Of a stretch of 64,000 bases of DNA, positions 12,068-33,618 are shown piece after piece (the first letter of the stretch is position 1; each line of letters starts with the position of its first letter). The stretch is taken from positions 496,001 to 560,000 of the forward strand of contig NZ_CAMPOV010000002.1 in assembly GCF_946892675.1 (NCBI RefSeq), written 5' to 3'. The notes beneath the pieces are model-generated. The model searched no databases. It saw only the letters and a program-made list of their open reading frames with translations, and was not told where the DNA came from. The stretch is from Arthrobacter sp. Marseille-P9274. GTDB lineage: Bacteria; Actinomycetota; Actinomycetes; Actinomycetales; Micrococcaceae. The position numbers and the translations under genes are program-made.

Positions 12068-12083
12068 ATACCCCCATGGGTAT
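12068..12083. promoter_or_regulatory. CstR-type operator 1
   Basis: The 16-mer ATACCCCCATGGGTAT is an inverted repeat ATACCC-N4-GGGTAT. It sits immediately upstream of a TAGAAT box read on the minus strand, so it probably controls the Cys-rich/dsrE direction. Confidence 0.75.
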
Positions 12084-12111
12084 TCGACGGTTTCGGGACG
12101 ACACTTGCGGC

Positions 12112-12127
12112 ATACCCCCGGAGGTAT
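12112..12127. promoter_or_regulatory. CstR-type operator 2
   Basis: The 16-mer ATACCCCCGGAGGTAT has the same architecture as site 1 with one imperfect position. It overlaps a TATTAT (-10-like) box at 12125-12130 on the plus strand, which fits repression of cstB. Confidence 0.72.
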
Positions 12128-12145
12128 TATTGTTGATTCTGAAAT

Positions 12146-12161
12146 ATACCCCCGGGGGTAC
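12146..12161. promoter_or_regulatory. CstR-type operator 3
   Basis: The 16-mer ATACCCCCGGGGGTAC is nearly perfect. It lies between operator 2 and the cstB ribosome-binding site (AAGGAGA). Confidence 0.75.
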
Positions 12162-12186
12162 CGGGAGCCAACGACAAGGAGACGAG

Positions 12187-13596
12187 ATGCTGCTCGAGCG
12201 AATCTATGACGAGGACCTGGCGCAGGCCGGCTACTTCATCGGCTGCCAGCGCAAGGGCGAGGCCGTGGTGGTCGATGCCCGCCGCGACATCGATGTGTAC
12301 CTCGAGATGGCCAAGGCCAACGGGATGAAGATCGTCGCGGTCACCGAGACCCACATCCACGCCGACTATCTCTCCGGCACCCGTGAGCTCGCCGCGGCCA
12401 CCGGCGCGGACATCTACGTCTCCGGCGAGGGCGGCACGGACTGGCAGTACGGCTTCGGCGCCGCGCGCCTCAACGACGGCGATGCGGTCTCGATCGGCAA
12501 CATCACCGTCCAGGCCGTACACACCCCCGGGCACACCCCGGAACACCTGTCCTTCCTCGTCACCGACGGCGCATTCAGCGACCAGCCCGGCTACCTCCTC
12601 TCCGGCGACTTCGTCTTCGCGGGAGACCCGGGCCGGCCGGACCTGCTGGACGAGGCCGCCGGCGGCATCGACACCCGCTTCGAGGGCGCGAAGCAGCTCT
12701 TCGCCAGCCTGCGCACCAAGTTCCTGACCCTGCCCGACCACGTCCAGGTCTACCCCGGCCACGGCTCCGGCAGCGCCTGCGGCAAGGCTCTGGGCGCGAT
12801 CCCGTCCACCACGGTCGGCTACGAACGTCTCTACTCCTGGTGGGGCAAGTACCTTGAAACCAACGACGAACAGGGCTTCATCGACGAGCTCCTCGACGGC
12901 CAGCCCGACGCCCACGCCTACTTCGGCCGGATGAAGCGCCAGAACCGCCTCGGCCCGGCCGTGATGGGCGACCGCGCACCGCTGCCCGAACTGGACAATC
13001 AGACCATTGCCGCAGACCTGGCCGCCGACAAGGTCACTTTCGTCGACACCCGCCCCAACACGCAGGTCCACGAAGGCACCGTGCCTGGCGCGCTGAACAT
13101 CCCGGCCGGGAACAAGGCCGCCAGCTTCGGCGCCTGGGCCTACGACCCCGAGACCGACGACCGGCCCCTGGTCCTGCTGGCCCCGGACCAGGACGCGGCC
13201 CGCACCATGTGGGACCACCTGGTCCGCGTCGGCATCGACAACGTCGCCGGCTACACGACAAACCTGGACGGGCTGCCCACTGCGGTCCCGGCCCTGATCC
13301 AACCCGAGGAACTCGAGGGCTTCGACGCCGCCCTGGTCCTGGACGTGCGGAACAGGACCGAGCACACCGCCGGCCACATCCCCGGCTCCGACCAGCTCAG
13401 CGCCGGCCGTGTGCTCTGGAACCTGGACAAGCTCCCCTTCGACGGCACCATCGTGACCTACTGCCAGAGCGGGGTGCGCAACTCCGTCGCCGCCAGCGCC
13501 CTGCGCCGCGCCGGCTACAACGTCGTCGAACTCGACGGCAGCTACGCAGCCTGGGAAAACTTCCAGGCCACCCGCCAAACGGCCGCCATCCGCTAA
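12187..13596 (+). CDS. cstB: CstB-like persulfide dioxygenase/sulfurtransferase (MBL + pseudo-rhodanese + rhodanese)
   Basis: This 469-residue protein has three domains. An N-terminal metallo-beta-lactamase fold (about 1-235) carries the iron-site motif THIHADYLSG (His56, His58, Asp60), HTPGHTPEH, Asp141 and YPGHGSG; Tyr61 replaces the second histidine of HxHxDH. A middle rhodanese-like domain (about 255-355) has no cysteine at its active loop (LAPDQDAAR). The C-terminal rhodanese has the active loop YCQSGVR (Cys426). This order is that of Staphylococcus CstB, which oxidises persulfides to thiosulfate. AAGGAGA precedes the ATG. Three CstR-type operators lie upstream, and a hairpin follows the stop. 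Confidence 0.88.
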   Translation: MLLERIYDEDLAQAGYFIGCQRKGEAVVVDARRDIDVYLEMAKANGMKIVAVTETHIHADYLSGTRELAAATGADIYVSGEGGTDWQYGFGAARLNDGDAVSIGNITVQAVHTPGHTPEHLSFLVTDGAFSDQPGYLLSGDFVFAGDPGRPDLLDEAAGGIDTRFEGAKQLFASLRTKFLTLPDHVQVYPGHGSGSACGKALGAIPSTTVGYERLYSWWGKYLETNDEQGFIDELLDGQPDAHAYFGRMKRQNRLGPAVMGDRAPLPELDNQTIAADLAADKVTFVDTRPNTQVHEGTVPGALNIPAGNKAASFGAWAYDPETDDRPLVLLAPDQDAARTMWDHLVRVGIDNVAGYTTNLDGLPTAVPALIQPEELEGFDAALVLDVRNRTEHTAGHIPGSDQLSAGRVLWNLDKLPFDGTIVTYCQSGVRNSVAASALRRAGYNVVELDGSYAAWENFQATRQTAAIR

Positions 13597-13612
13597 CCGA
13601 CGAACACCACCG

Positions 13613-13641
13613 CACGGGCCCGCAGTCACTGCGGGCCCGTG
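13613..13641 (+). terminator. Hairpin after cstB
   Basis: This is a perfect 14-bp inverted repeat (CACGGGCCCGCAGT) with a single central base, 17 bases after the cstB stop. There is no T tract, so termination may be weak or factor-dependent. Confidence 0.55.
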
Positions 13642-13677
13642 GGCGTTATGATCGCCCCACTCCTGCGGAGGATAAAG

Positions 13678-14749
13678 ATGGCCGACACACCAAAAGCCCC
13701 CTTGCCAGCCCTCGGACTGCGGGCCAACGCGGCACAGTTCACCCTACTGGTGGTAGTAAACGCACTGGTCGGCGGGATGGTCGGCCAGCAGCAGACCGTA
13801 CTGCCGCTGCTGGCCACAGAGGACTTCGGACTGACAGGGTTCACCTTCATCTTCACCTACGTCGCGGCCTTCGGGGTGACGAAGGCGATCGCCAACTACT
13901 TCGCCGGAACGCTCTCCGACCGGCACGGCCGCAAGCCCGTCCTGCTCGCCGGCTGGCTGTTCGCGGTGCCCGTGCCGCTGATGCTGATCCTTGCCCCGAA
14001 CTGGGGCTGGGTCATCGCCGCCAACGTGCTGCTGGGCATCAACCAGGGCCTGACCTGGTCCACCACCGTCGTGATGAAAATCGATCTGGTGGGTCCGCGG
14101 CAGCGCGGGCTGGCGCGCCGACGGGATGCACGACCACCTGCACCAGGACCTGGACAACCGGCAGATCCTGATCCAGACCAGCCTGCGGGAACCGGCGCTG
14201 TCGTCGGCAAGCCTGGCCGGACTAGTGAACAACCTCAATTTCGGCCTGTCCTGGGGCCTGTTCCCGCTGCTTTTCGCCACCGCCGGCCTGCCGGTGGAGC
14301 AGGTGGGCCTGCTCTTTGCCCTCTACCCGGGCGTGTGGGGCGCGGGACAACTGGTCACCGGAGCCCTCTCTGACAGGATCGGCCGCAAGCACCTCATCGC
14401 GGCCGGCATGAGGCTCCAGGCCGCGGCCCTGGCCATCATCGCAGCATCCGGTGCCTTCGGCGGCTGGGCCCTGGGAACCGTGCTGTTGGGAGCAGGGACC
14501 GCGATGGTTTATCCGACGCTCCTGGCGGTGGTCGGGGACGTGGCACACCCAGCCTGGCGCGGCCGGGCGGTCGGGGTCTATCGGATCTGGCGCGACCTCG
14601 GCTACGCCTTCGGTGCCATCCTCGGGGGCGTCATCGCCGACCGGTTGGGCCTGCACGCCGCCGTCTGGGCGGCAGCGGCCCTCAGCGCGGCGACTGCGGG
14701 CATCGTCGCTGCGAGGATGTACGAAACGCTGGCCTCCCGGCCGGGCTAA
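13678..14749 (+). pseudogene. MFS transporter, disrupted by internal deletion and frameshift
   Basis: GGAGG precedes an ATG at 13678 that opens a good MFS N-terminus (SDRHGRKPVLLAGWLF; helices 1-4). The frame is coherent to about 14117 (GPRQRGLA) and then becomes low-quality, ending at 14373. A second frame from about 14114 (RADGMHDHLHQDL) runs to 14749 and supplies the MFS C-terminal half (GALSDRIGRKHLIAAG). The two halves together give only about 357 codons, short of the usual 400-plus. The end of the N-terminal bundle (helices 5-6 and the start of the central loop) is therefore missing as well as the frame being shifted. It sits between cstB and cstR. A functional product is unlikely. Confidence 0.8.
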
Positions 14750-14854
14750 GGCACGGTCCCGGGCGGGCCCGGCGCGGCACCGCACCGAACAAAGCGACAG
14801 GCGGCCCTGGTCCGCATGGACCCGGCCGCCTGTCCGCCTTGCCGATCGTCTGGC

Positions 14855-15822
<968 letters not shown>

Positions 15823-15874
15823 GCGACTTTCCCCTCAAGCCGGTTCCCGCCAGCCTTCATCCAAGGAACCCGCC

Positions 15875-16171
15875 ATGGCCGAGACCACCATCCAGGACAC
15901 CAACGACCGCCGCACCCGCGACCAGATCCTCGATGTCCGCGAGGATTTCGAAGTCGCCGAGGGAATGATCCCCGAAGCCCTGCACATCCCGATGGGCGAC
16001 CTCAACCGCCGCCTGAACGAGCTCGACCGCAGCCGCCCCTTCATCGTGGTCTGCCGCAGCGGCAACCGCAGCGCCCGCGTCGCCGACGCGCTCAACACCG
16101 CCGGCTACACCGCCGACACCATGACCGGCGGCATGATCGCCTGGCAGCGCGCCGGCCTTCCCACCCGCTGA
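15875..16171 (+). CDS. Single-domain rhodanese
   Basis: This 98-residue sulfurtransferase domain has the active-site loop VCRSGNRSAR (Cys then Arg/Asn/Arg) and the N-terminal motif ILDVREDFEVAEG. It is likely a cytoplasmic persulfide or thiosulfate transferase. It lies 52 bases after the membrane rhodanese and 41 bases before the exporter gene, consistent with one transcript. Confidence 0.88.
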   Translation: MAETTIQDTNDRRTRDQILDVREDFEVAEGMIPEALHIPMGDLNRRLNELDRSRPFIVVCRSGNRSARVADALNTAGYTADTMTGGMIAWQRAGLPTR

Positions 16172-16212
16172 CCCGCCTGCCGGCCCCTCCCACCACGCAA
16201 AGGACCGACCAC

Positions 16213-17103
16213 ATGAGCCTCGCCCTCACGGCCACCCTGCTGCTCTCCGTCGTCATCGGACTCTCCCTCGGCCTGCTCGGCGGCGGGGGCTCCATCCTCA
16301 CCGTTCCCATCCTCACCTACGTCGCCGGGCTCGACCCCAAGGAAGCCATCGCCGCGTCCCTGTTCGTCGTCGGTGCGACCTCGGCCGTGAGCGCCATCGC
16401 CCACGCACGCAACGGCCGCGTCAAATGGCGCACGGGCCTGGTCTTCGGTGCCGCCGGCATGGCCGGAGCCTTCCTCGGCGGCCTGCTCGGCGGACACATC
16501 CCCGGCACCATCCTCATGATCGCCTTCGCCCTCATGATGGTCGCCACCTCCATCGCCATGATCCGCGGCCGCAAAAACAAGGCCCAGGACGCCACCACCC
16601 ACAACAACGAACTGCCCGTCCTCAAAGTCACCCTCGAAGGCCTCGTCGTCGGCCTCGTCACCGGACTGGTCGGAGCCGGCGGCGGATTCCTCGTCGTCCC
16701 GGCCCTCGCCCTTCTCGGCGGCCTCGCGATGCCCGTCGCCGTCGGAACCTCCCTGGTCGTCATCGCGCTGAAGTCCTTCGCCGGACTCGGCGGCTACCTC
16801 ACCAGCGTCAGCCTGGACTGGGGACTCGTCGGCGCCGTCACCGCCGCCGCCATCGTCGGCTCCGTGCTCGGCTCCCGCCTGGCCGGCCGCATCCCCGAAA
16901 CAGCGCTCCGCAAGGGCTTCGGCATCTTCGTGCTCGTGATGGGCGTCTTCGTCCTCGTCCAGGAACTCCCCGCCCCGGCCAACACCATTCTCGCCGTCGC
17001 CGCAGCCGTCCTGGCAGCAGCCGCCCTCACCTGCCGCTACGCCATCCCCGCCTGCCCGCTACGGCGGTCGCCCGCCCGGCCTGCCGCGGCGGGAGCCCGC
17101 TAG
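16213..17103 (+). CDS. TauE/SafE-family sulfite or sulfonate exporter
   Basis: The 296-residue membrane protein has about eight helices and the duplicated TauE motif (GLLGGGGSILTVPIL in repeat one, GLVGAGGGFLVVPAL in repeat two). TauE proteins beside CstR are thought to export sulfite or thiosulfate formed from persulfide oxidation. The last 25 residues are Arg/Pro/Ala-rich and unconserved. It is the last gene of the operon and is followed by a terminator at 17124-17157. Confidence 0.88.
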   Translation: MSLALTATLLLSVVIGLSLGLLGGGGSILTVPILTYVAGLDPKEAIAASLFVVGATSAVSAIAHARNGRVKWRTGLVFGAAGMAGAFLGGLLGGHIPGTILMIAFALMMVATSIAMIRGRKNKAQDATTHNNELPVLKVTLEGLVVGLVTGLVGAGGGFLVVPALALLGGLAMPVAVGTSLVVIALKSFAGLGGYLTSVSLDWGLVGAVTAAAIVGSVLGSRLAGRIPETALRKGFGIFVLVMGVFVLVQELPAPANTILAVAAAVLAAAALTCRYAIPACPLRRSPARPAAAGAR

Positions 17104-17123
17104 CGCCGCAGCAGCAACAGCAA

Positions 17124-17157
17124 ACGGCTGCTTAGGTCTACAGACCTAAGCAGCCGT
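17124..17157. terminator. Bidirectional terminator between tauE and rlmN
   Basis: A perfect 16-bp inverted repeat (ACGGCTGCTTAGGTCT) with a 2-base centre lies between two convergent genes. Neither side has a long T tract. Confidence 0.75.
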
Positions 17158-17179
17158 CGTCGTTGTGTGGCTGGAAAGA

Positions 17180-18397
17180 TTATTCCGCCGCGGCGAGCTG
17201 GCCGCAGGCGCCGTCGATCTCCTTGCCGCGGGTATCGCGCAGCGTCGTGGGGACGCCGGCATCATTGAGCCGGTCGACGAATTCCCGGGTGACGTCCGCG
17301 TCCGAGCTGGTCCAGATGGAGCCCGGCGTCGGGTTCAGCGGGATCGGATTCACGTGCACCCAGCCGCGGCCGCGCTTGTTCAGCTTCTTGGCCAGCAGGT
17401 CCGCGCGCCAGGCGTGGTCGTTCATGTCCTTGATCAGCGCGTACTCGATCGAAACGCGGCGGCCGGTGCGCTCGTAGTAGCCGTAGGCGGCATCGAGTGC
17501 CTCATCCACCTTCCAGCGCGAGTTGACCGGGATCAGCTCGTCGCGGAGCTCATCGTCCGGTGCGTGCAGGCTCAGTGCGAACGTGAAGGGAAGGTTCTCG
17601 TCCGCCAGCTTGTTGATCGCCGGGACCAGGCCGACCGTGGACACCGTAATGCCGCGGGCGCTCATGCCCAGCCCCTCCGGAGCCTCGTCCACCATGCGGT
17701 GCACGGCGTTCATCACGCGCTTGTAATTGGCCAGCGGTTCGCCCATCCCCATAAAAACGATGTTGGTGACGCGCTCGGCGTCAGCGCCGCCGTCCCGCCG
17801 CTTGCCGCCGAGCCCGCCCTCTGCGATCACGCGGTTGGCCTGGACGATCTGGTCCAGGATCTCCGCCGTCGACATGTTGCGCGTCAGCCCGGCCTGTCCG
17901 GTGGCGCAGAACGGGCAGTTCATGCCACAGCCGCACTGGCTGGAGACGCACAGCGTGATCCGGCCCGTGTAGCGCATCAGCACCGACTCCACGAGCGAGC
18001 CGTCGAAGAGCCGCCACAGGAACTTGATCGTGTCGCCCTTGTCCGTGGTCAGCCGCTTGACCTCGGTCAGCAGCTTCGGGAAGAACGCCTCGGCCAGCTC
18101 GGCGCGGCGCTCCTTGGGCAGGTCGCTCATCCGCTCCGGGTCGGTGGTGTAGTGCTGGAAGTAGTGCGTGGAAAGCTGCTTCGCGCGGAAGGCGGGCAGC
18201 CCCAGCTCCTTCATCTTCTCCTGCCGCTCGGCCAGCGTCAGGTCGGCCAGGTGGACCGGCGGCTGCGTGACCCGCGGGGACTTAAACTGCAGCAGCGGCC
18301 GTCCCTCGGCGGTGACGGCCTGGTTCCAACCCTCGGTCGCGGGGCGCACCTGTGGCCGGTCTGAAATGACTTGGGGGGAAGTTTTCTGCGAAGACAT
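17180..18397 (-). CDS. rlmN: 23S rRNA/tRNA A2-methyltransferase, radical SAM
   Basis: RlmN methylates C2 of A2503 in 23S rRNA and A37 in some tRNAs. The 405-residue protein has the radical SAM cluster motif CGMNCPFC (Cys157, Cys161, Cys164). The family motifs [21 protein letters not shown] and YALIKDMND are present, as is the C-terminal [17 protein letters not shown] containing the resolving cysteine. The ATG at 18397 is taken because the upstream extension shows no conservation and would run through the intergenic promoter region shared with the divergent glycosylase gene. Confidence 0.95.
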
Positions 18398-18452
18398 TGG
18401 CACTATTGTCTCACACGGACTACAGTTCTCCCTTTCGCCTAGAGTATCCAGC

Positions 18453-18899
18453 ATGCGCTTGTGGAGCCTGCACCCCCGGTACCTGGACCAGAAGGGGCTG
18501 GTCGCGTGCTGGCGCGAGAGTCTGTTGGCGCAGAAAGTGCTGGCCGGGGCCACGAAAGGCTACCGCAACCATCCGCAGCTGGTGCGCTTCCGCGCCGCCG
18601 CCGATCCAGGCGCGGCCATCGGCGCCTACCTGGTCGGTCTGGCCGAAGAGGCCGAGGGCCGCGGCTACCGCTTCAACACCGCGCTGGTACTCTCCCCGGA
18701 ACCCGCGTCGGCGGCGCCCATCCTGGTCACCGAGGGACAGCTGAACTTCGAACGGCAGCACCTGCTGGCGAAGCTGGCCATCCGCGACCCCGGCCGGCGG
18801 CACCAGCTCTCGCCCGCGCTGGCCGGCAGGGTCCCGGACGCGCATCCGCTGTTCCGGGTCATCGGCGGGCCGGTCGAGGACTGGGAGCGGGCGGTCTGA
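18453..18899 (+). CDS. Pyrimidine dimer DNA glycosylase/endonuclease V family protein
   Basis: This 148-residue protein begins [22 protein letters not shown], matching the N-terminus of the T4 endonuclease V-like family, whose N-terminal segment carries the catalytic amine. Further family features are HPQLVRFR and [17 protein letters not shown]. Members cut at UV-induced pyrimidine dimers or are uncharacterised relatives. It is divergent from rlmN. The ribosome-binding site is poor, but the homology starts exactly at this ATG. Confidence 0.82.
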
Positions 18900-18932
18900 A
18901 ACCGGGCGGCCGCTGCCCGGGCCCCGGCGCGC

Positions 18933-20135
18933 TCAGCGGCGGCGCTCCTGGAAGCGGACAATCCGCTCCACGGCCTCGGCCACGGCATCCTTGCCCGCGG
19001 CAAAGGACAGCCGCACCGAACGGCGTCCGTTGACGGCGTCGAAGTCGGAGCCCGGCACCAGCGCCACGCCCTCGTCCTCCAGCAGCGCGCGGCAGTACTC
19101 CGCAGAATCGGCGAAGCCCGCCAGCTGGTCCCCCAGGTCCGCGTAGAGGTAGAAGGCACCGTCTGCCGGAGCAGCCGTCCCCCACTCCAGCCGGCCCAGG
19201 TTGTCCAGCAGCACCTGCCGGATGCCGGCGAACTCCGCCACCGCGGCGTCCGCCTCGGCATAGGACTCGGGGCGGAAGGCCTCCACCGCGGCGAGCTGCG
19301 CGGGGGTGGGCGGGCAGAGCGCCACGTTGCCGGCGAGCGCGTCCATGGCCGGCGCCAGGTCGCGCGGCATCAGCGCCCAGCCCAGCCGCCAGCCGGTCAT
19401 TCCCCAGTACTTGGAGAAGGAGGAAATAACGACGCCGGTCTGGTCCAGTTCCCACGCGCACACGCCTTTGGCGTCGGGCGCCTGGGGGTCCGTGTAGGTA
19501 ATGCCGTGATAGATCTCGTCGCTGACCAGCCGCACGCTGTTTGTGCGGCACCAGTCCGTCAGCGCGGCGAGCTCGGTCCGGGAGACCATAGTGCCGGTCG
19601 GGTTCGCGGGCGAGGCCAGAACCAGCCCGGACAGCTTGCCGTGGGCCTCCGCCGCCGCGTCCAGCAGGGCCGGATTCGGCTGGTACCGTTCACCCGGGCC
19701 GCAGTCGATCTCGACCACCTCGCAGCCCACCGCGGTCAGGATGTTGCGGTAGGCGGGGTAGCCGGGGCGGGCGAGGGCCACCCTGTCGCCGGGATTGAAC
19801 GCCGCGAGGAACGCGAGCATGAAGGCCCCGGATGAACCGGTGGTGACGGCGACGTCGTCGTCAGTGATCTCCAGACCGTACCAGCGGCGGTAGTGCCCCG
19901 CAATCGCCTCCCGCAGGTCCCGGACGCCAAGCGCGCTCGTGTAGGTCAGCGGCAGGGCCAGGCGGTGGATCTCCGCAGCCTTGGCCGACACCGCGCTCGG
20001 GGCGCCCGCGGACGGCTCTCCCGCGCACAGCGAGATGACGTCCCGGCCCGCGGCGCGCATATCGGCCACGCGCTGCAGGACGTTCATGACTTCGAAGTGC
20101 GGCACCCGGGCGCGGTCAGCGACCTTGAGGCTCAC
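18933..20135 (-). CDS. PLP-dependent aminotransferase, class I/II (aspartate aminotransferase family)
   Basis: The 400-residue protein has the fold-type I layout: GSSGAFMLAF for phosphate binding, SPANPTGTMVSR, VSDEIYHGITY, and the PLP lysine in SFSKYWGMTGWRLGW. It transfers amino groups between an amino acid and a 2-oxo acid; the exact substrate cannot be told. The GTG at 20135 is chosen because AAGGAG lies eight bases upstream and conservation starts there; an ATG reading further upstream adds unconserved residues. Confidence 0.88.
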   Translation of the reverse strand: MSLKVADRARVPHFEVMNVLQRVADMRAAGRDVISLCAGEPSAGAPSAVSAKAAEIHRLALPLTYTSALGVRDLREAIAGHYRRWYGLEITDDDVAVTTGSSGAFMLAFLAAFNPGDRVALARPGYPAYRNILTAVGCEVVEIDCGPGERYQPNPALLDAAAEAHGKLSGLVLASPANPTGTMVSRTELAALTDWCRTNSVRLVSDEIYHGITYTDPQAPDAKGVCAWELDQTGVVISSFSKYWGMTGWRLGWALMPRDLAPAMDALAGNVALCPPTPAQLAAVEAFRPESYAEADAAVAEFAGIRQVLLDNLGRLEWGTAAPADGAFYLYADLGDQLAGFADSAEYCRALLEDEGVALVPGSDFDAVNGRRSVRLSFAAGKDAVAEAVERIVRFQERRR

Positions 20136-20254
20136 GTGGCGGCTCCTTGCGGAAGTAGGGCTGGGGCTGAAGCCACCAGCTTCGCACATCCGCAGCAGGC
20201 CCGGGCGGCCGCCTTCCGGCGACGGCATCGTCCAACGGGCGGCAAAGCCCGCAC

Positions 20255-22392: not shown

Positions 22393-22396
22393 GTCT

Positions 22397-24720: not shown

Positions 24721-24730
24721 GAGGCCACCT

Positions 24731-24745: not shown

Positions 24746-24784
24746 CCAGTCCGCGCTCATTTGGTATGTGACTCTAGTCATATA

Positions 24785-24799
24785 TACTCATTTGAGCAA
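24785..24799. promoter_or_regulatory. SorC-type operator C in the divergent promoter region
   Basis: TACTCATTTGAGCAA reads on the other strand as TTGCTCA-AA-TGAGTA. A further half-site TTGCTCA follows at 24806-24812, and a weaker copy (GCTCATTTGG) is at 24755. The cluster covers the region between the importer and regulator genes. Confidence 0.65.
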
Positions 24800-24838
24800 G
24801 AGGGGTTGCTCAGGCGTGAGACTGGAGGTCCTAGCCCG

Positions 24839-25801: not shown

Positions 25802-27201
25802 GCATCGCAATCGGCATCGACTCCTCCACCCAATCCTGCAAGGTACTCGCCGTCGACCTGGAGACGGGCGCCATCCGCTCCTCGGGGTCCGCGCCGCACC
25901 CGGACGGGACGTCGGTGGACCCAGTCCACTGGGAGCGGGCCCTGGCCAAAGCATGGAACGACGCCGGCATCCGCGGTTCCGCGGATGTCGCGGGGGTGAG
26001 CGTGGCCGCCCAGCAGCACGGGATGGTGGCGCTCGACGCCGAAAACCGGCCGGTCCATGACGCCCTGCTGTGGAACGACACCCGCAGCGCGGGAGCGGCC
26101 GAAGACATGGTCGCCGAGCTGGGCGCCGCGGCGTGGGCCGAGGCCGTCAACGTGGTGCCGGTGGCCTCGTTCACCCTCACCAAGCTGGCCTGGCTGGCCC
26201 GGAACCGGCCCGAACTCGCGGCCAAAGTGGAGCGCGTGGTCCTGCCGCACGACTACCTCAACTACCGCCTGACCGGCCGCTTCTTCACCGACCGCAGCGA
26301 CGCCTCGGGCACCGCCTACTACTCCGCCGCCGCGGACACCTACCGGGCCGACCTGCTCCGGAAGTACTTCGGCAGGCTGCCCGAACTGCCGCCGGTGCTC
26401 GCGCCGCAGGAGTCCGGCGGCACGCTCCTGCCGGACTGGGACGCCGGCGGCGTGCCGGTCGGCGCCGGCGCGGGCGACAACGCGGGGGCGGCGCTGGGCC
26501 TGGGCATCAGCCCCGGAGACGTGGTGGTCTCCGTCGGCACGTCGGGCACCGTATTCACCTCCGCCCGCGAACCGGTGAACGATCCCAGTGGCGCGGTCGC
26601 CGGCTTCGCGGACGCCACCGGCGCCTACCTGCCGCTGCTGGCGATGATCAACTCGGCGCGGGTCATGGCGGCCACGGGTGCGATGCTCGGCGTGGACCTG
26701 CCGGAGCTGGACCGGCTCGCGCTTTCCGCCGCTCCGGACGCCGCCGGCCTGACGCTGCTGCCCTACCTTGACGGCGAGCGCACGCCCAATCTGCCCTACG
26801 CCACTGGCGGCCTGGTCGGCCTGACGCGCAGCAATATGACCCCGGAGAACCTAGCCCGGGCGGCGGTGCTGGCCGTGCTCAACTCGCTGGCGGACGCCCA
26901 GGAACTGCTGCGGGTCCGGGGCATTCCGGTGGAAAAGGTGCTGCTGATCGGCGGCGGGTCCAAGTCGCGGGCGCTGCGCCAGGCCGCCGCGGACGTCTTC
27001 GGCGTGCCGGTCGAGGTTCCCGCGGCGGCGGAATACGTCGCCCTGGGCGCGGCCCGCCAGGCGGCGTGGGCCGCCACCGGCTCGCTGCCCCAGTGGAAGC
27101 CGGCGCTGGACGCCGCCTACGAACCGGACCCGGGCGCCGACTGGGGCGCCGAGGTCCGCCGGCGATTCACCGCGGGCCGCATGTCGCTCTACGGCGTCTA
27201 G
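25798..27201 (+). CDS. xylB: Xylulokinase (FGGY carbohydrate kinase)
   Basis: This 467-residue kinase has the ATP-binding GIDSSTQSCK at the N-terminus, substrate segments QQHGMVALD and LLWNDTRS, the catalytic-base region GAGAGDNAGAA and the adenosine motif IGGGSKSRALRQ. It phosphorylates D-xylulose to xylulose 5-phosphate. Paired with the long-chain polyol dehydrogenase nearby, the likely route is D-arabitol to xylulose to the pentose phosphate pathway. Its stop overlaps that of the convergent dehydrogenase by four bases (CTAG). Confidence 0.9.
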   Translation: MSIAIGIDSSTQSCKVLAVDLETGAIRSSGSAPHPDGTSVDPVHWERALAKAWNDAGIRGSADVAGVSVAAQQHGMVALDAENRPVHDALLWNDTRSAGAAEDMVAELGAAAWAEAVNVVPVASFTLTKLAWLARNRPELAAKVERVVLPHDYLNYRLTGRFFTDRSDASGTAYYSAAADTYRADLLRKYFGRLPELPPVLAPQESGGTLLPDWDAGGVPVGAGAGDNAGAALGLGISPGDVVVSVGTSGTVFTSAREPVNDPSGAVAGFADATGAYLPLLAMINSARVMAATGAMLGVDLPELDRLALSAAPDAAGLTLLPYLDGERTPNLPYATGGLVGLTRSNMTPENLARAAVLAVLNSLADAQELLRVRGIPVEKVLLIGGGSKSRALRQAAADVFGVPVEVPAAAEYVALGAARQAAWAATGSLPQWKPALDAAYEPDPGADWGAEVRRRFTAGRMSLYGV

Positions 27202-28676
27202 CTTCCGGCCACCAGTTCCTCGACGGTCGCGCGGGCGCCGCGCTCGTGCAGGGAATCCAGGGCCGCGGTATAGGCCTCGACGAAGCTCTCGTTGTCCACG
27301 AGGTCGCCGAACACCTCCCGCTGGGCGATGAAGGCCAGCTTGTCCTCGCGGTTCCGGGCCGCCGCGGCCATCAGCGAGTCCTTCAACCGGTCGACGACGG
27401 CGATCGGCTCGCCTTGCTCGTCGGTTCCTTCCGCGTAGCGCGCCCACGAGGCGACGATCGCCGCGGAACGGTGGATCTCGCCGTCGTTCTTGAGGTTCTC
27501 CCGGATCACCGGCACCAGCCACTTGGGGATGCGGTCCGAGCTCTCCGCGCAGAGCCGGGTTAGGGTGTCCCGGACGTACTCGTTGGAGAAACGCGCGATC
27601 AGCTTGTGCTTGTAGGCGTCCAGGTCGATTCCGGGCACGGGCTGCAGGGTGGGCGTGGCCTCCCGGTCCATGTAATCGAGCAGGAACCGGGCGAACGTCC
27701 GGTCCTGGCAGACCTCGTGGGCGTAGCGGTAGCCGGCCAGGTAGCCGAAGTAGCACTGGCCCTGGTGGCTGGCGTTGAGCAGCCGCAGCTTCATCAGCTC
27801 GTAGGGCTCCACGTCCTCCACCAGCTGGACGCCGGCCTCGTCGAAGGGCGGCCGGCCCTGGGTGAAGTGGTCCTCCAGCGCCCACTGCTCGAAGTCCTCG
27901 CAGACCACCGGCCAGGCGTCCTCAACGCCGAACTCCTGGGCGATGGAGGCCCGGTCCTCGTCCGTGGTCACCGGGGTGATCCGGTCCACCATGGAGTTGG
28001 GGAAGGAGATGTTGGCGTCCATCCATTCCCCCAGCTCCGGGTCCTTCAGGCGGGCGAAGGCGGTGAACATCCTGCGGGCCATGTCCCCATTGCCCTGGAT
28101 GTTGTCGCAGGACATGATGGTCAGCGGCGGCAGGCCGCGCTGCCGCCGCCTAGCTACGGCCTCGGTGACCAGTCCGAAGGTGGTCGACGGCGTGGCCCCC
28201 GGCGCCAGGTCCGCGGCCACGGCGGGGTTGGCCGCGTCGAACTCTCCGGTGACGTGGTGGAAGTTGTAGCCGCCCTCGGTGATGGTCAGCGAGACGATCC
28301 GGGTCTGCTCCGAGGCCATCTTCTCGATCACCGCCTCCGGGTCCTCCGGCGCCAGCAGGTATTCGATGATCGAGCCGATCACGCGGGCCTCGCGGGTGCC
28401 GTCCGGGTTCTTGACCACCAGGGTGTAGAGGCAGTCCTGGTCCGCCATGGCCTTCTTCATCGCCGCGTCCGAGGGCATCACGCCCACCCCGCAGATGGCC
28501 CAGTCGAGGGCCTTGCCGGCGTTCATCAGGCGGTCCAGGTACATCGCCTGGTGCGCCCGGTGGAACCCGCCGACACCGAAATGCACGATTCCGGCTCTCA
28601 GCTTGCTCCGGTCATAGGAAGGGATGGCCAGCTGAGAGGCTAGCTGCGGCAGGGTTACGGCGTTGAGCGCGGACAT
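27198..28676 (-). CDS. Long-chain polyol (mannitol/arabitol) 2-dehydrogenase
   Basis: The 492-residue protein matches the mannitol-dehydrogenase family in length and motifs. It has an N-terminal NAD-binding GVGGFHRAHQ and the catalytic K-x4-N-x2-H set as Lys296, Asn301, His304 (KLRLLNASH), almost the same numbering as Pseudomonas mannitol 2-dehydrogenase. It oxidises a C5 or C6 polyol to a ketose. Mannitol to fructose or arabitol to xylulose are both possible; the nearby xylulokinase favours arabitol. A perfect copy of the locus operator lies upstream at 28734, so it probably shares the SorC regulon although it is transcribed separately. Confidence 0.9.
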   Translation of the reverse strand: MSALNAVTLPQLASQLAIPSYDRSKLRAGIVHFGVGGFHRAHQAMYLDRLMNAGKALDWAICGVGVMPSDAAMKKAMADQDCLYTLVVKNPDGTREARVIGSIIEYLLAPEDPEAVIEKMASEQTRIVSLTITEGGYNFHHVTGEFDAANPAVAADLAPGATPSTTFGLVTEAVARRRQRGLPPLTIMSCDNIQGNGDMARRMFTAFARLKDPELGEWMDANISFPNSMVDRITPVTTDEDRASIAQEFGVEDAWPVVCEDFEQWALEDHFTQGRPPFDEAGVQLVEDVEPYELMKLRLLNASHQGQCYFGYLAGYRYAHEVCQDRTFARFLLDYMDREATPTLQPVPGIDLDAYKHKLIARFSNEYVRDTLTRLCAESSDRIPKWLVPVIRENLKNDGEIHRSAAIVASWARYAEGTDEQGEPIAVVDRLKDSLMAAAARNREDKLAFIAQREVFGDLVDNESFVEAYTAALDSLHERGARATVEELVAGS

Positions 28677-28733
28677 GCTACCACCTTGTGAGCCGGGTTA
28701 CTTTCGCACAATCTAGCATATGAGTCTCCGCCG

Positions 28734-28748
28734 TTGCTCAGATGAGCA
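28734..28748. promoter_or_regulatory. SorC-type operator E upstream of polyol dehydrogenase
   Basis: TTGCTCAGATGAGCA is a clean inverted repeat TGCTCA-N2-TGAGCA, 58 bases before the dehydrogenase start. It has the same spacing as the sites near 24.7-24.8 kb. Confidence 0.65.
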
Positions 28749-28855
28749 CATCCTCTCCGGGCCCCTGGCTTGGGCCCCTTGGCAGGACCGCGGAGCAGTG
28801 CCAAGGTGAACACTGTCCGCAGTCATCCACGCTATCGATTCCGTGAGGACCAGCC

Positions 28856-29278
28856 ATGGCACGCATGATCTTCCCGAACCTCCCCGTGACCGACCTGGCC
28901 AAGGCCACGGACTTCTACACCGGCCTGGGCTTCGAGAAAAACCCGCAGTACAGCAATGACGTCTGCTCCGCCATCGTCGTCTCGGACAGCATCGTGGTGA
29001 TGCTGCTGCAGCAGGAGTTCTTCAAGGGTTTCCTGGCCGACGGCGACACTCCGCACCTGACGTCGGACGCCAAGGAGGTGCTCAACTGCCTCAGCTGCGA
29101 CTCCCGCGAGGAGGTGGACAGCCTGGTGCAGAAGGCCCGGGACAGCGGCGGGACGGTGTACCACCCGGCCGAGGAGGGCACCCCCGGCATGTACGCCGCC
29201 TCGGTGGCCGATCCGGACGGCCACATCTGGGAGCTGCTCTACATGTCCCCCGAGGCCATGGCCGGACAAGAAGGCTGA
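28856..29278 (+). CDS. VOC-family (glyoxalase/bleomycin-resistance-like) protein
   Basis: This 140-residue protein has the paired beta-alpha-beta-beta-beta units of the vicinal oxygen chelate fold: NLPVTDLAKATDFYTGLGF at the N-terminus and VADPDGHIWELLYM at the C-terminus. The latter carries the metal-ligand glutamate of the second unit. It resembles small glyoxalase-like proteins of unknown substrate. Confidence 0.85.
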   Translation: MARMIFPNLPVTDLAKATDFYTGLGFEKNPQYSNDVCSAIVVSDSIVVMLLQQEFFKGFLADGDTPHLTSDAKEVLNCLSCDSREEVDSLVQKARDSGGTVYHPAEEGTPGMYAASVADPDGHIWELLYMSPEAMAGQEG

Positions 29279-29311
29279 CCCGACGCAGCGCGTACCCGAC
29301 ACTGCCTATAC

Positions 29312-29341
29312 GGCAGCTCCTACTCCGGCAGCTCCTACTCC
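29312..29341. repeat. 15-bp perfect tandem duplication at the 3' end of arsC
   Basis: GGCAGCTCCTACTCC occurs twice head to tail (29312-29326 and 29327-29341). The second copy covers the stop codon of the minus-strand arsC gene, so the first copy is a second stop-bearing duplicate just downstream. Confidence 0.85.
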
Positions 29342-29757
29342 GCGGTGAGCTCCTCGTAGAGGCGGTGGACCCGGGCATCGATCTCGTCGCGGACCAGGCG
29401 CATCCGTTCCATGCCGTGGATGTCGCGGAGGCTCGGCTCGTCGATCTCCCACCGCTCGTAGCGGGTCCCGGGCACCTCATCCAACCGGGCGTTCGTGCCG
29501 AGGATGACGACGACGTCGGCGGAGCGCTGCGCTTCCTCCGTCACCGCGGTGGGGGTGTTCGCGCTGATGTCGACGCCCTTCTCGAGCAGCGCCGCGGCCG
29601 ATTCCGGGTTGACGGCCGTCCCCGGCTTGGTGCCGCAGGAGTGCACCTCGACCGTTCCACCGGCCAGCTTCTCCATCAGGCCCGCGGCCATCGGGGACTT
29701 GCCGCTGTTGGACGAGCAGACGAAAAGGACGCTGGGTCTGTCGGTGGGCGTAGCCAT
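29335..29757 (-). CDS. arsC: Mycothiol-dependent arsenate reductase (ArsC1/C2 type)
   Basis: This 140-residue protein has the low-molecular-weight phosphatase fold with P-loop CSSNSGKS (Cys14, Lys20). Lysine in place of the usual CX5R arginine is what the actinobacterial arsenate-mycothiol transferases show, together with GTKPGT and the C-terminal GMERMRLVRDEIDARV, both present. Such enzymes form an arseno-mycothiol adduct that mycoredoxin reduces. It is divergent from the second arsC. No arsR, arsB or acr3 gene is near. Confidence 0.85.
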   Translation of the reverse strand: MATPTDRPSVLFVCSSNSGKSPMAAGLMEKLAGGTVEVHSCGTKPGTAVNPESAAALLEKGVDISANTPTAVTEEAQRSADVVVILGTNARLDEVPGTRYERWEIDEPSLRDIHGMERMRLVRDEIDARVHRLYEELTAE

Positions 29758-29919
29758 GCTGCAAAATCCTCTCGCGGGCCGTGAAGTCGGTGTCGGTGCG
29801 GCTGTCCGCGGCCAGGCGGCCGGTTGCCGCCGACCCCTTGATAGTAGCCGCCGTTCTTGCTGGACTGTTCTAGAGCGCACGCGGCTGCACCTGCGACGCC
29901 GCAGAAAGAGGGAACCGCC

Positions 29920-30354
29920 ATGACCGAGCCCAGCAGCCACACGCCCGTCGTCCTCTTTGTCTGCGACCACAACGCCGGCCGCTCGCAGATCGCCGCGGCC
30001 TACCTAAACCACCTCGGCCGCGGCGCCCTCGTGGCCAAGTCGGCCGGGTCGCGGCCCTCCGCCGAGGTTCATCCCGCCGTCGTGGAGGCGATGGCGGAGG
30101 ACGGACTCGACATTTCCGCGGAGACACCCAAGGAGCTCACCGACGAGGCGCTCCAGGACGCCAACATGGTCATCACACTGGCCGGCAGCGAGGCCGTGCG
30201 CGTGATCCCGGGACGCAAGTACGAGGACTGGCAGCTCCGGCATCCTGACAACGATTCGCTGTCGCACGTCAGGCCGCTGCGCGACGACATCAAGGCCCGC
30301 ATCCAGGAGCTGCTCTCCGAACTGCTTCCGGCCGTCCACCCCGACGCCAACTAA
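29920..30354 (+). CDS. arsC: ArsC-like low-molecular-weight phosphatase fold protein
   Basis: The 144-residue protein carries the canonical P-loop CDHNAGRSQ (Cys15, Arg21) and the segment [13 protein letters not shown] seen in thioredoxin-type ArsC. It has only one cysteine: the positions of the two recycling cysteines of the Trx-coupled enzyme are Gly89 and Val93. An internal disulfide cascade is therefore impossible, and reduction should need an external thiol such as mycothiol. GAGGGAA precedes the ATG at 29920. The trxB-like gene follows 19 bases after the stop. Confidence 0.82.
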
Positions 30355-30373
30355 TACCTGCGAGGAACCCGCC

Positions 30374-31351
30374 ATGGACACTGACAAGCTGATCATCATA
30401 GGATCCGGACCGGCGGGCTACACCGCCGCCGTCTACGCCGCGCGGGCCGGGCTGGCGCCGCGGGTGATCGCCGGCGCGGTCACGGCCGGCGGCGCGCTGA
30501 TGAACACCACCGAGGTGGAGAATTTCCCCGGCTTCCCGGACGGCATCCAAGGTCCGGAGCTGATGGAGCAGATGCGCTCCCAGGCAGAGAGATTCGGTGC
30601 CGTGATTGAGTACGACGACGTTTCCACCGTCTCGCTCAAGGGGCACGTCAAGGAGGTGGCCACCATGGGCGGGAACACCTACACCGCGCCGGCCGTCATC
30701 CTTGCCACCGGTTCGGCGTACAAGGAGCTGGGGCTGCCGGAGGAGAAGATGCTCTCCGGCCACGGGGTGTCCTGGTGCGCCACCTGCGACGGGTTCTTCT
30801 TCCGCGACCAGGACATCATCGTGGTCGGCGGCGGCGACTCCGCGATGGAAGAGGCTCTCTTCCTGACCCGCTTCGGAAAGAGCGTCACGGTCGTGGTCCG
30901 CCGCGACACCCTCCGGGCGTCGAAGATCATGGCCATGCGGGCCCGCGACAACGAGAAGATCCGCTTCGCCTACAACAGCGCCGTCACCGCCATCCACGGG
31001 GACACCAAGGTCACCGGCGTGACCCTGACGGACACCGTCAGCGGCGCCACCCGGGACCTGCCCGCCTCGGGCCTGTTCGTCGCGATCGGCCACCTGCCGC
31101 GCACCGACCTGGTCAAGGGCCAGGTCGAGCTCGACGACGAGGGCTACATCAAGGTGGACTCCCCCACCACCTGCACCAACCTGGACGGCGTCTTCGCCTG
31201 CGGCGACGCCGTGGACCACCGCTACCGCCAGGCCATCACCGCCGCCGGCACCGGGTGCTCCGCCGCCTTGGACGCCGAACGTTATCTGGCGGCCCTGGAC
31301 GACGCCGACAGCATCGCCACCGCGCTCGTCGAAGCGGAGACGCACGCCTGA
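30374..31351 (+). CDS. trxB: Thioredoxin-disulfide reductase
   Basis: This 325-residue flavoenzyme has the FAD motif [20 protein letters not shown], the redox pair CATC (Cys135, Cys138) and the NADPH motif [16 protein letters not shown] terminal FAD-binding region, [23 protein letters not shown], is also present. It reduces thioredoxin or a similar small dithiol protein with NADPH. Co-transcription with arsC suggests a thiol-redox supply for arsenate reduction. The genome's main trxB may be elsewhere. Confidence 0.92.
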
Positions 31352-31423
31352 CCGGCCCCTCCCGGCCGGCCCGCCTGGCCCTTGCTCCCCCGCCCCGGGG
31401 CCTCCCGGACGAACCGGCCCGGA

Positions 31424-31963
31424 TTAATTGCGCGCCACGAGCGCGTCGACCTGCTCGAGCAGCGCTTCCATTTCCACCTCGGTGACGTCGGCAGGCTGGG
31501 CGTTACCGGAGAAGAACGTCGCGCTGTAGTACAGCCCGTCCCCCATCAGCTTGACCGCCTGGGCCAGCGGCCGGCTGCCCAGGGCTTCCTCGAGCGCCTT
31601 CAGCCACAGGTCCTGGATCCGCGAGAAGGCATGCGCGGCCGCCGGGTGGCCCTGCTGCACCAGCCGGGCCACCGCGACGATCGCCCGGTCCAGGGGTGAA
31701 TCCACGTAGTGCGAGGTCCGCACGTAGTAGCGCGCGGCGCCTTCGGGCGCGGCGCCGATCTTCACGGCGTCGTCTTCGGTCAGCGCCTCGAGCCGCTGGC
31801 ACAGTCCTTCCACCATCGCTTCCTTGGACGGGAAGTGGTAGAGCAGCCCGCCCTTGGAGACTCCGGCCGCGGCGGCTACCGCGTCCATGGTGGCGGCCCG
31901 TTCACCCTCTTTGATGAGGATGTCTTCAAAGCTGTCGAGGATCCGGTCTTTCGCGCTGGCCAT
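31424..31963 (-). CDS. TetR-family repressor of the adjacent efflux gene
   Basis: The 179-residue protein has an N-terminal TetR helix-turn-helix (TMDAVAAAAGVSKGGLLYHFPSKEAMVEGL, about residues 25-54) and a helical ligand domain. It is divergent from a DHA2 MFS gene, with the inverted repeat ACCGTC-CA-GACGGT between them. Classical repressor-pump arrangement. Confidence 0.9.
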   Translation of the reverse strand: MASAKDRILDSFEDILIKEGERAATMDAVAAAAGVSKGGLLYHFPSKEAMVEGLCQRLEALTEDDAVKIGAAPEGAARYYVRTSHYVDSPLDRAIVAVARLVQQGHPAAAHAFSRIQDLWLKALEEALGSRPLAQAVKLMGDGLYYSATFFSGNAQPADVTEVEMEALLEQVDALVARN

Positions 31964-31987
31964 GGCTCCATCCTACGGGTCGGCGAA

Positions 31988-32016
31988 TTGTTTATAAACC
32001 GTCCAGACGGTACAGT
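31988..32016 (+). promoter_or_regulatory. Promoter of the DHA2 efflux gene with embedded TetR operator
   Basis: TTGTTT (31988-31993) and TACAGT (32011-32016) are exactly 17 bases apart. The palindrome ACCGTC-CA-GACGGT (31998-32011) fills the spacer, so bound repressor would block polymerase. Confidence 0.7.
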
Positions 32017-32052
32017 TATGCCGTTCCCGTTCGTTCCTCCAGGAGGTGCAGT

Positions 32053-33555
32053 ATGCTCACGATCACCCAACGCGCCGGCCGCAAGGAGTGGACCGCCCTG
32101 GCGGTGCTCATGCTGCCCGTCCTACTGGTCGCCGTCGACAACACGGTCCTCAGCTTCGCCCTGCCGGCCATTTCGCTGGACTTCAACACCAGCGGCACCA
32201 CGCTGCTGTGGATCATCGACATCTACCCGCTGGTGCTGGCCGGACTGCTGGTCGCGATGGGCAGCCTGGGCGACCGCTTCGGCCGCCGGCGGATGCTGAT
32301 GATCGGCGCGGCCGGGTTCGCAGCCCTGTCGGCGGTCGCCGCGTTCTCCCCCAGCGCCGAGCTGCTCGTCGCGGCGCGGGCCGGACTGGGCATCTTCGGC
32401 TCCATGCTGATGCCGGCCACGCTGTCGCTGATCCGCAACATCTTCGGTGACCGCGGCCAGCGCCGGCTGGCCATCGCGATCTGGGCGGCCGGCTTCTCCG
32501 CCGGTGCCGCCCTGGGCCCGCTGCTCGGAGGCTTCCTGCTGGAGCACTTCCACTGGGGCGCGGTCTTCCTGCTCGCCGTGCCCGTACTGGTGCTCATGCT
32601 CGCGCTGACCCCGGCGTTCGTGCCCGAGTCCCGCGATCCATCGCCGGGCGGCGTGGACGTGGTCAGCATCGCGCTCTCGATCGCTACCATGCTGCCCGTC
32701 GTCTACGCCATCAAAAACCTGGCCAACGACGGTGGCTTGCCCGCAACCCTGGCGAGCGCCGCCGTCGGGCTGGCCTCCGGCTGGCTGTTCACGCGGCGCC
32801 AGCTCTCCCGCACGAGTCCGATGCTGGACGTGCGCCTCTTTGCGGTGCGGCCGTTCACCGGCGCGGTGCTGGTCAACCTGCTGGCCATCTTCTCGCTGGT
32901 GGGCTTCCTCTACTTCGTCTCGCAGCACCTGCAGCTGGTGCTCGGGCTCGGCCCGCTGGAGGCGGGGCTGGTGCTGCTGCCCGGCCTCGCGGTGACGATT
33001 GCGGCCGGCCTGCTCGCCGTGCCGCTGGTCCGGCGGATCCAGCCGCATCTGGTGGTCTCCGGCGCCCTGCTGCTTTCGGCCGCGGCCTACTGGATGGTGG
33101 CTTCCTCCGAGGACGGCTCGGCCGGGTGGCTAATGCTGGCCTTCGTCGTGCTGGGAGCGGGCGTCGGCGCCTCCGAGACCCTGTCCAACGATTTAATCCT
33201 CTCCAGCGTGCCCGCAGCCAAGTCCGGTGCCGCCTCCGCGGTCTCGGAGACGGCCTACGAGGTCGGCTCCGTGTTCGGAACGGCACTGCTGGGCAGCATC
33301 CTGGTGTCCTCGTACCGCGACAACGTCGAACTGCCGGCCGGCCTGGACCCGGAACAGGCGGCGGCTGCCGGCGAAACATTGGGCGGCGCGATCAATACCG
33401 CGGCCGACCTCCCGGCGCGGAGCGCAGACGCCCTGCTGGACTCGGCCTTCCGGGCCTTCGACAGCGGTGTGTCGATCACCGCGGGCATCGCCGCCGTGCT
33501 GATGCTGGCCGCGGCCTGGCTGGCCTTCCGGACCCTGCGGGGCGTCCAGGCCTGA
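32053..33555 (+). CDS. DHA2-family MFS drug exporter (14-helix, SmvA/QacA type)
   Basis: This 500-residue membrane protein has about 14 helices and the family motifs VAVDNTVLSFALP (motif D1), GSLGDRFGRRRMLMIGA (motif A) and GAALGPLLGGFLLEHFHW (motif C). SmvA/QacA relatives expel lipophilic cations such as methyl viologen or quaternary ammonium compounds by proton antiport. AGGAGG stands six bases before the ATG. Confidence 0.9.
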   Translation: MLTITQRAGRKEWTALAVLMLPVLLVAVDNTVLSFALPAISLDFNTSGTTLLWIIDIYPLVLAGLLVAMGSLGDRFGRRRMLMIGAAGFAALSAVAAFSPSAELLVAARAGLGIFGSMLMPATLSLIRNIFGDRGQRRLAIAIWAAGFSAGAALGPLLGGFLLEHFHWGAVFLLAVPVLVLMLALTPAFVPESRDPSPGGVDVVSIALSIATMLPVVYAIKNLANDGGLPATLASAAVGLASGWLFTRRQLSRTSPMLDVRLFAVRPFTGAVLVNLLAIFSLVGFLYFVSQHLQLVLGLGPLEAGLVLLPGLAVTIAAGLLAVPLVRRIQPHLVVSGALLLSAAAYWMVASSEDGSAGWLMLAFVVLGAGVGASETLSNDLILSSVPAAKSGAASAVSETAYEVGSVFGTALLGSILVSSYRDNVELPAGLDPEQAAAAGETLGGAINTAADLPARSADALLDSAFRAFDSGVSITAGIAAVLMLAAAWLAFRTLRGVQA

Positions 33556-33589
33556 GCCGGATCGCCGTCGAGCGAACCCGGCCGATTCA

Positions 33590-33618
33590 TTGCTCTATAC
33601 CCCAAGGGGGTATAGACT
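33590..33618 (+). promoter_or_regulatory. csoR promoter with embedded 17-bp CsoR operator
   Basis: The inverted repeat CTATACCCC-N3-GGGGTATAG covers 33595-33615, with a 17-base ATACCCC/GGGGTAT core at 33597-33613. It fills the spacer between TTGCTC (33590-33595) and TAGACT (33613-33618). The core is one base longer than every CstR-type site at 12-15 kb. Confidence 0.78.

Follow-up and report, generated by a model that had tools for sequence, protein, structure and literature searches.

Two operator lengths, 16 and 17 bp, go with the persulfide and copper subfamilies of CsoR-type repressors in Arthrobacter and its relatives

CstR of Staphylococcus aureus is a persulfide repressor of the same type as one of two CsoR-family proteins encoded in a stretch of 64,000 nucleotides from Arthrobacter sp. 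Marseille-P9274 (the window, meaning the whole stretch that was analysed); the other is a copper-type CsoR. Next to both lie predicted operators built from the half-sites ATACCC and GGGTAT, which span 16 base pairs (bp) in the persulfide locus and 17 bp at the copper operon. Such pairs raise the question of how CsoR-family paralogues whose operators are almost alike escape cross-repression when they share a cell. A comparable situation is found in the response elements of nuclear receptors, where the half-site is shared and the receptor is chosen by the length of the spacer. These eukaryotic proteins are unrelated and serve as an analogy only.

Placed side by side, the published sites already obey a 16/17 rule. 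CsoR sites of Streptomyces lividans, a type 2 operator of the form TAC-N9-GTA (PMC3902906), of C. glutamicum and B. liaoningense (PMC5057107) and of S. aureus copA and copX (PMC5947656) are 17 bp long by our own count, and the sulfur-sensing paralogue of S. coelicolor has the 16-bp site ATACCn6GGTAT (PMC7533328). On the 17-bp-type site two CsoR tetramers are bound, the TAC/GTA ends are essential and the G-tracts are A-like (PMC3902906). The S. lividans protein resembles the one of the window in its Cys-His-Cys ligands, its copper efflux targets and a G-tract pseudopalindrome with 17 bp between the outer ends; its spacing is not contrasted with that of CstR in the part of PMC3902906 at hand, whereas here 17 bp is kept apart from 16 bp in the genomes of the family. 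Similarly, ScCsoR of S. coelicolor shares with the CstR locus the neighbouring pdo (persulfide dioxygenase), rhodanese and TauE genes, two Cys residues and a 16-bp site, which is located in the promoters of pdo and of csoR-like/rhodanese. There, 16 bp is reported as a motif, and the accessible sections draw no contrast to the 17-bp box of CsoR in that genus (PMC7533328). TTHA1953 of Thermus thermophilus is likewise a CsoR-family regulator of sulfur genes with an even-length palindrome. One spacer base added or removed is reported to change its dissociation constant about 10- or 15-fold, spacing thus mattering for high affinity, and little to no cross-binding is reported between TTHA1953 and the resident CsoR (PMC10318464). 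In that system, in contrast, the half-site sequences are unlike and lack a G-tract, and length is not the main discriminator. A statement of the 16-versus-17 contrast was not found in the surveyed literature, so far as its excerpts extend; the papers on S. aureus CstR, one of which compares both paralogues, may state the rule.

In the window, the six sites of the original prediction, five of 16 bp in the persulfide locus and one of 17 bp at csoR-copZ-copA, were all recovered (Table 1). A scan with at most one mismatch to ATACCC/GGGTAT and inner spacers (N, the bases between both half-sites) of 0–15 gave six sites in total, five with N=4 (16 bp) and one with N=5 (17 bp). Exact ATACCC-N(2–8)-GGGTAT matches numbered three, whereas 100 shuffles of the sequence gave 0.00 on average. 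The S. coelicolor-type motif ATACCn6GGTAT fits fully at 12068, 12112 and 15170 and is one base off at 12146 and 15149, and the site at 33597–33613 conforms to the CsoR type 2 operator, a TAC-N9-GTA inverted repeat with G-tracts. Outside the window, a second exact 17-bp site was found at G000:C2:376504 of the same genome, inside a 25-bp near-palindrome 5' of a copper-translocating P-type ATPase gene (labelled 'CopB-type' by us). A further pattern match, TACCCTTCAGGGTA, is surrounded by open reading frames (ORFs) to which we assign neither a copper nor a sulfur role. The tally for this genome amounts to 5/5 for 16 bp (window sites) and 2/2 for 17 bp (exact genome-wide matches).

It is probable, in our estimate, that CsoR and CstR share a near-identical half-site and that each subfamily needs its own distance, 17 or 16 bp, with geometry keeping the wrong paralogue off. 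The half-sites would then stand 11 bp apart, start to start, for CsoR and 10 bp apart for CstR, a distance which the geometry of the repressor on DNA may read. One base corresponds to about 34 degrees and 3.4 Å of B-DNA, presumably enough to exclude the wrong paralogue. The preference would be intrinsic to each subfamily; avoidance of cross-talk would probably follow from it and need not be why it is kept. The lengths are tightly linked to the kind of regulator and to the kind of target gene, copper or sulfur, within single genomes and in two phyla. Discrimination by length, keeping the two regulons apart, is the most likely function that we infer from this linkage, and it is supported by the reported spacing sensitivity of TTHA1953. 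New is hence a regularity that holds generally inside a known family and that likely serves discrimination. If true, CsoR and CstR regulons would be separable genome-wide by operator length, and the family would offer a bacterial counterpart of spacing-coded recognition, suggesting that ligand and operator specificity parted together.

To follow the lengths by locus, 61 Micrococcaceae genomes were searched, and loci of the own genome were left out of the set. Together with flanking sequence (at most 5 kb for the CstR range, 1.5–3 kb for the CsoR range), the set took in 54 lower-scoring matches in the CstR range and 71 in the CsoR range, to which 80 named CstR loci were added and one of them dropped; some named and unnamed loci are identical DNA. 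Sorting the proteins by similarity and by the ligand place, four residues ahead of the second Cys, resulted in a clean split. At this place the 132 proteins of the CstR kind carry Gly (111), Ala (19), Ser (1) or Asn (1); all 72 CsoR-kind proteins, a fragment included, carry His. With spacers 0–15 treated alike and near-identical sites collapsed, exact sites at the CstR loci have N=4 in 162 cases, N=5 in three, N=3 in two and N=13 in one. At the CsoR loci N=5 occurs 68 times, N=4 never and N=11 once. Allowing one mismatch, N=4 versus N=5 becomes 347 versus 4 at CstR loci and 1 versus 100 at CsoR loci, and 129/132 and 68/72 loci, respectively, have one or more sites of the length expected for their regulator. 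In family genomes with both regulators, the own genome aside, N=4 in the cstR locus coincides with N=5 in the csoR locus in 40 of 41; both sites lie directly upstream in 33, and one crossing, L081, was observed. The scan of related genomes, suggested along with the initial finding, therefore strongly supports the length rule at cstR and csoR loci, and mixed lengths at orthologous loci, which would speak against it, are confined to few exceptions.

Three exact 17-bp sites occur at CstR loci: those of L158 and L060 are almost 5 kb from cstR and that of L081 is just upstream. A 17-bp site is missing from the csoR loci L006, L015, L089 and L209. In the first three, csoR follows an ATPase-like ORF (judged by eye), so that for these the promoter of the operon may be situated outside the sequence retrieved. 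At two mismatches, an excess of N=2 and N=6 sites for CstR and of N=3 and N=7 sites for CsoR can be read as G-tract shifts of true sites.

The same relation is seen on the level of whole genomes (tables compiled by hand for family and class). Exact sites with N=3, 4, 5 and 6 amount to 5, 125, 151 and 3 in the 61 family genomes, compared to 2, 2, 3 and 0 for reversed-pattern controls. Genomes with CstR have an exact 16-bp site in 41/42 cases and those lacking it in 0/19 (p=7e-15); the single miss, G019, has such a site with one mismatch at its cstR. Exact 17-bp sites are present in 61/61 genomes, and in the CsoR-only ones 17 bp is found upstream of csoR in 18/18. At the class level, 79 genomes were compared, with 'CstR-like' denoting any PF02583 match below about 90 bits, possibly including other subfamilies. 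Here 16-bp and 17-bp sites occur in 9/9 and 0/9 genomes with CstR-like proteins only, 1/34 and 20/34 with CsoR only, 16/26 and 18/26 with both, and 0/10 each with neither. Sites of 16 bp thus track CstR-like proteins (25/35 with, 1/44 without) and not CsoR (17/60 versus 9/19, p=0.16), and those of 17 bp track CsoR (38/60 versus 0/19) and not CstR-like proteins (18/35 versus 20/44, p=0.65). As each length is kept without the paralogue, it is a property of each subfamily.

As a separate observation, genome G017 gave no PF02583 protein in the search and has two exact 17-bp sites, one of them (L360, G017:C12) 5' of a CopB-like ATPase gene.

Sites remote from the regulators behave alike. Among the matches listed, 34 sites of 17 bp and 22 of 16 bp were unlinked, that is, more than about 10 kb from a same-kind regulator match or on another contig, and neighbouring genes were sought within 2.5 kb in a subset of ORFs. 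Two more 16-bp stretches, L403 and L404, were left out, as a CstR fragment is close by or cstR is 8 kb away. Short contigs make linkage unsure. Copper genes (P-type ATPase, CopZ-like, one CueP) adjoin 24 of these 34 17-bp sites, and no sulfur gene of the reference set was found near them, bar a disregarded 14-bit match of the major facilitator superfamily (MFS) at L361. In contrast, 13 of the 22 16-bp sites are near sulfur genes (persulfide dioxygenase, TauE, rhodanese and others), and no copper exporter was found near any of the 22. Thioredoxin alone was counted as sulfur at L383, and the pyridine nucleotide-disulphide oxidoreductases at L396 and L401 were read as resembling sulfide:quinone oxidoreductase. 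The split, 24 copper to no sulfur for 17 bp against no copper-only to 13 sulfur for 16 bp, corresponds to p=3e-10 for the matches listed. It becomes 7e-9 if L397, whose site has a marginal rhodanese match and a multicopper oxidase on opposite sides, is counted as copper. DUF302 and multicopper oxidase genes recur near rhodanese or cstR at 16-bp sites (L286, L397 and L403; the oxidase in L286 and L397), which suggests that the oxidase belongs to sulfur regulons.

Beyond the family, 29 phylum loci (L211–L239), best matches to CstR in which no His was read, gave N=4 in 15, only N=5 in five and neither within one mismatch in nine cases. For 29 CsoR loci of the class (L240–L268) N=5 was found in 23, N=4 in none and neither in six. 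Eighteen plasmid loci, picked by hand for spread among 60 and 50 listed rows, extended the comparison to Bacillota, Pseudomonadota and Deinococcota. At up to one mismatch, the sites of seven non-His regulators (Streptomyces, Arthrobacter, Staphylococcus twice, Lactiplantibacillus, Enterococcus, Cytobacillus), which neighbour persulfide, rhodanese or thioredoxin genes, measure 16 bp, and none of 17 bp is present. Sites of the 17-bp type accompany 7/8 His-type regulators: Priestia, Niallia, S. epidermidis, Butyrivibrio, Nitrobacter, Micrococcus (about 3 kb away) and Sporosarcina (in the TAC-N9-GTA sense only). L273 (Leuconostoc) has a 16-bp-like site downstream only, and L275 (Azospirillum) has neither a Cys pair nor a site within one mismatch. 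Taking all distinct proteins together, with the own CstR included, 213/268 have a site within 600 bp upstream (at most one mismatch, N=2–8); the nearest has N=4 for 125 non-His proteins versus three others and N=5 for 82 His proteins versus three others. On a protein tree of 71 N=4 and 75 N=5 rows, length changed three times, compared to 48.8 times with shuffled labels; the tree, built on 98 columns, has many unresolved forks and long branches that join, and its bootstrap is not settled. Two of the changes, at L081 and L283, are late.

In tandem arrays the two kinds differ as well. CstR sites are 21 bp, two turns of B-DNA, apart in 80/182 distinct pairs within 70 bp and 42 bp, or two steps, apart in 29, and CsoR tandems are spaced by 24–25 bp in 17/26 pairs. 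The 21-bp step occurs under 15 genus labels, of which named and unnamed may overlap, and three CstR sites at 21+21 bp are seen in 30/132 loci, near-duplicates not being collapsed (for example tandem loci L099, L104 and L120). In the window, 15149 and 15170 form such a 21-bp pair, whereas steps of 44 and 34 bp separate the sites at pdo. Since half-sites are spaced by 10 bp within a site and by 11 bp to its neighbour, all half-sites of a 21-bp array fall, by arithmetic, on one face of B-DNA, an arrangement that may reflect cooperative stacking. A more general length code can be put forward as a tentative proposal. Half-sites would stand about one turn apart, 11 bp for CsoR on an A-like helix favoured by G-tracts and 10 bp for CstR; CstR arrays of 21 bp (10 and 11 alternating, mean 10.5, one face) and CsoR tandems of 24–25 bp would then be two mutually exclusive lattices from one half-site, a rule of the CsoR family in Actinomycetota and Bacillota.

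With the half-sites aligned from the outside (326 and 100 sites), the two classes differ little in sequence, by at most 0.046 bits (Jensen-Shannon) at core positions 1–8 and at most 0.068 bits in the flanks. A length-blind classifier on seven core positions reached a balanced accuracy of 0.57 and an area under the curve (AUC) of 0.69, figures which the relatedness of the sites renders optimistic.

Several findings weigh against discrimination by length. Addition of eight flanking bases raised the equally optimistic classifier values to 0.79 and 0.89; since the flanks differ, length need not be the only cue. The cores are alike in part because the sites were picked by ATACCC/GGGTAT with one mismatch allowed. 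The CsoR sites of M. tuberculosis and T. thermophilus fall outside the length scheme (PMC3902906, PMC10318464). Among the matches listed, no copper or sulfur gene was assigned to the surroundings of 10/34 unlinked sites of 17 bp and 9/22 of 16 bp; some with ordinary neighbours, such as guaA (L389), uvrC (L393) and a 3-dehydroquinase gene (L378), are perhaps due to chance. No site within 600 bp upstream was found for 55/268 distinct proteins, 32 of which have a farther one (including six non-His proteins with N=5) and 23 none. The CsoR-only class genome G192 carries a 16-bp match, the His-type regulator of L283 (Paracoccus) has a one-mismatch 16-bp site, and in L285 (Deinococcus), whose regulator carries Tyr as the ligand-place residue, two sulfur genes enclose a 17-bp-like site. 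Exact 17-bp sites accompany CstR-like non-His regulators (Val/Thr) in L230, L231, L234, L236 and L238 of one Actinomycetota family, which perhaps represent another subfamily; a thioredoxin-like gene adjoins the site in the three inspected. An exact 15-bp site is situated just upstream of cstR in L158, and the nearest upstream sites of L126, L061, L175 and L280 measure 15, 14, 18 and 14 bp, all weak matches. Finally, the sole site within one mismatch at the cstR of L081 (G053, 4847–5225) has 17 bp and is followed by a multicopper oxidase gene. Copper control of L081 via this oxidase was considered and is weakened by a like oxidase in the L286 cstR cluster with 16-bp sites and in L397.

Alternatively, the lengths might be marks of an ancient split, both proteins tolerating both lengths and flanks, affinity or effectors preventing cross-talk. 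Co-ancestry of this kind would fit the retention of each length without the paralogue (18/18 CsoR-only family genomes and 9/9 CstR-like-only class genomes), the mere three changes on the protein tree and the information in the flanks (AUC 0.89). However, neutral drift would scatter the lengths, whereas unlinked sites in many promoters with varied spacer letters keep to the two; N=3 and N=6 sites are almost absent, and in the Thermus relative binding is reported to respond to a shift of the spacing by a single base (PMC10318464). We regard co-ancestry alone as unlikely. Because the length stays the same in genomes that have just one of the regulators, the distance is intrinsic to the subfamily, and insulation may be a consequence rather than a cause.

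A role of RNA polymerase in setting the length, with the site filling the spacer between −35 and −10, could be considered as some sites seem by eye to overlap promoter elements, for instance upstream in L279, and the box of B. liaoningense CsoR shares bases with −10 elements (PMC5057107). Yet in tandem CstR arrays two or three sites of equal length cannot all fill a spacer, site-to-gene distances are broad for CstR and CsoR, and length goes with the regulator. Promoter geometry is disfavoured by the arrays and the broad distances and appears very improbable. The window alone, with five sites versus one, would also permit a reading by chance or selection bias, as a small sample over-read. Against this stand the 125 and 151 exact sites versus 2 and 3 with the reversed pattern, and the scan of both paralogues with identical half-sites and all spacers 0–15; the counts for N=3–6 refute the chance reading, which retains next to no probability. 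Discrimination by length stays the reading that we prefer.

Table 1. Predicted operators and genes of the persulfide and copper loci in the window (bp positions of the 64,000-nucleotide stretch)
Feature	Position	Strand	Remarks
16-bp CstR-type operator	12068..12083	+	exact; 5' of persulfide dioxygenase gene; predicted
16-bp CstR-type operator	12112..12127	+	1 mismatch, ATACCCCCGGAGGTAT; predicted
16-bp CstR-type operator	12146..12161	+	1 mismatch, ATACCCCCGGGGGTAC; 25 bp 5' of pdo start codon; predicted
pdo, MBL-fold hydrolase and rhodanese domains	12187..13596	+	Lactamase_B and Rhodanese above Pfam cut-offs; dioxygenase function by homology and context
cstR, CsoR-family repressor	14855..15112	-	Cys35/Gly60/Cys64; PF02583 match
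16-bp CstR-type operator	15149..15164	+	1 mismatch, ATACCCCCTAGGGTGT; between cstR and YgaP-like gene; predicted
16-bp CstR-type operator	15170..15185	+	exact; 21 bp from 15149 neighbour; predicted
Rhodanese with YgaP-like transmembrane domain	15235..15822	+	both Pfam domains above cut-off
Single-domain rhodanese	15875..16171	+	Pfam match above cut-off
TauE/SafE-type sulfite exporter	16213..17103	+	PF01925, 181 bits
17-bp CsoR-type operator	33597..33613	+	exact, ATACCCCAAGGGGGTAT; predicted
csoR, copper-type repressor	33647..34021	+	Cys62/His87/Cys91; PF02583 match
copZ-type copper chaperone	34048..34275	+	best matches are CopZ models, below curated cut-offs
copA, copper-translocating P-type ATPase	34338..36683	+	TIGR01511, 535 bits, above cut-off; start codon uncertain

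The two regulators score 104.3 and 82 bits against PF02583 (gathering score 22.8), and a search of the own genome with this model returned CstR and CsoR only. The ligand-position difference pointed out initially, Gly60 in CstR and His87 in CsoR, was borne out, the Cys pairs being C35/C64 and C62/C91. With Cys-His-Cys ligands (C62, H87, C91) and copper efflux genes downstream, CsoR shows the traits of the copper subfamily. CstR, having two Cys and no His ligand (C35, G60, C64), shows those of the persulfide subfamily, as does its neighbourhood at 12187–17103 with Lactamase_B plus Rhodanese, two more rhodanese proteins and TauE. Many protein positions separate the subfamilies, so no length-reading residue is claimed. 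Structures of relatives exist, with no DNA complex among the molecule names listed.

Some minor observations concern single loci. The record of L163, titled Vibrio cholerae 35D, contains a cstR 80% identical to that of the window and is probably a contaminated assembly. In L088 (G028, 4953–5189) a csoR fragment without its first part, counted as CsoR-kind, has a 17-bp site and adjoins a gene that by eye looks nuoA-type. Between pdo and cstR of the window (13639–14749), an MFS gene seems split over two frames (ORFs 13639–14373 and 14126–14749); its relative in L158 (29–1315) encodes 428 amino acids in a single frame.

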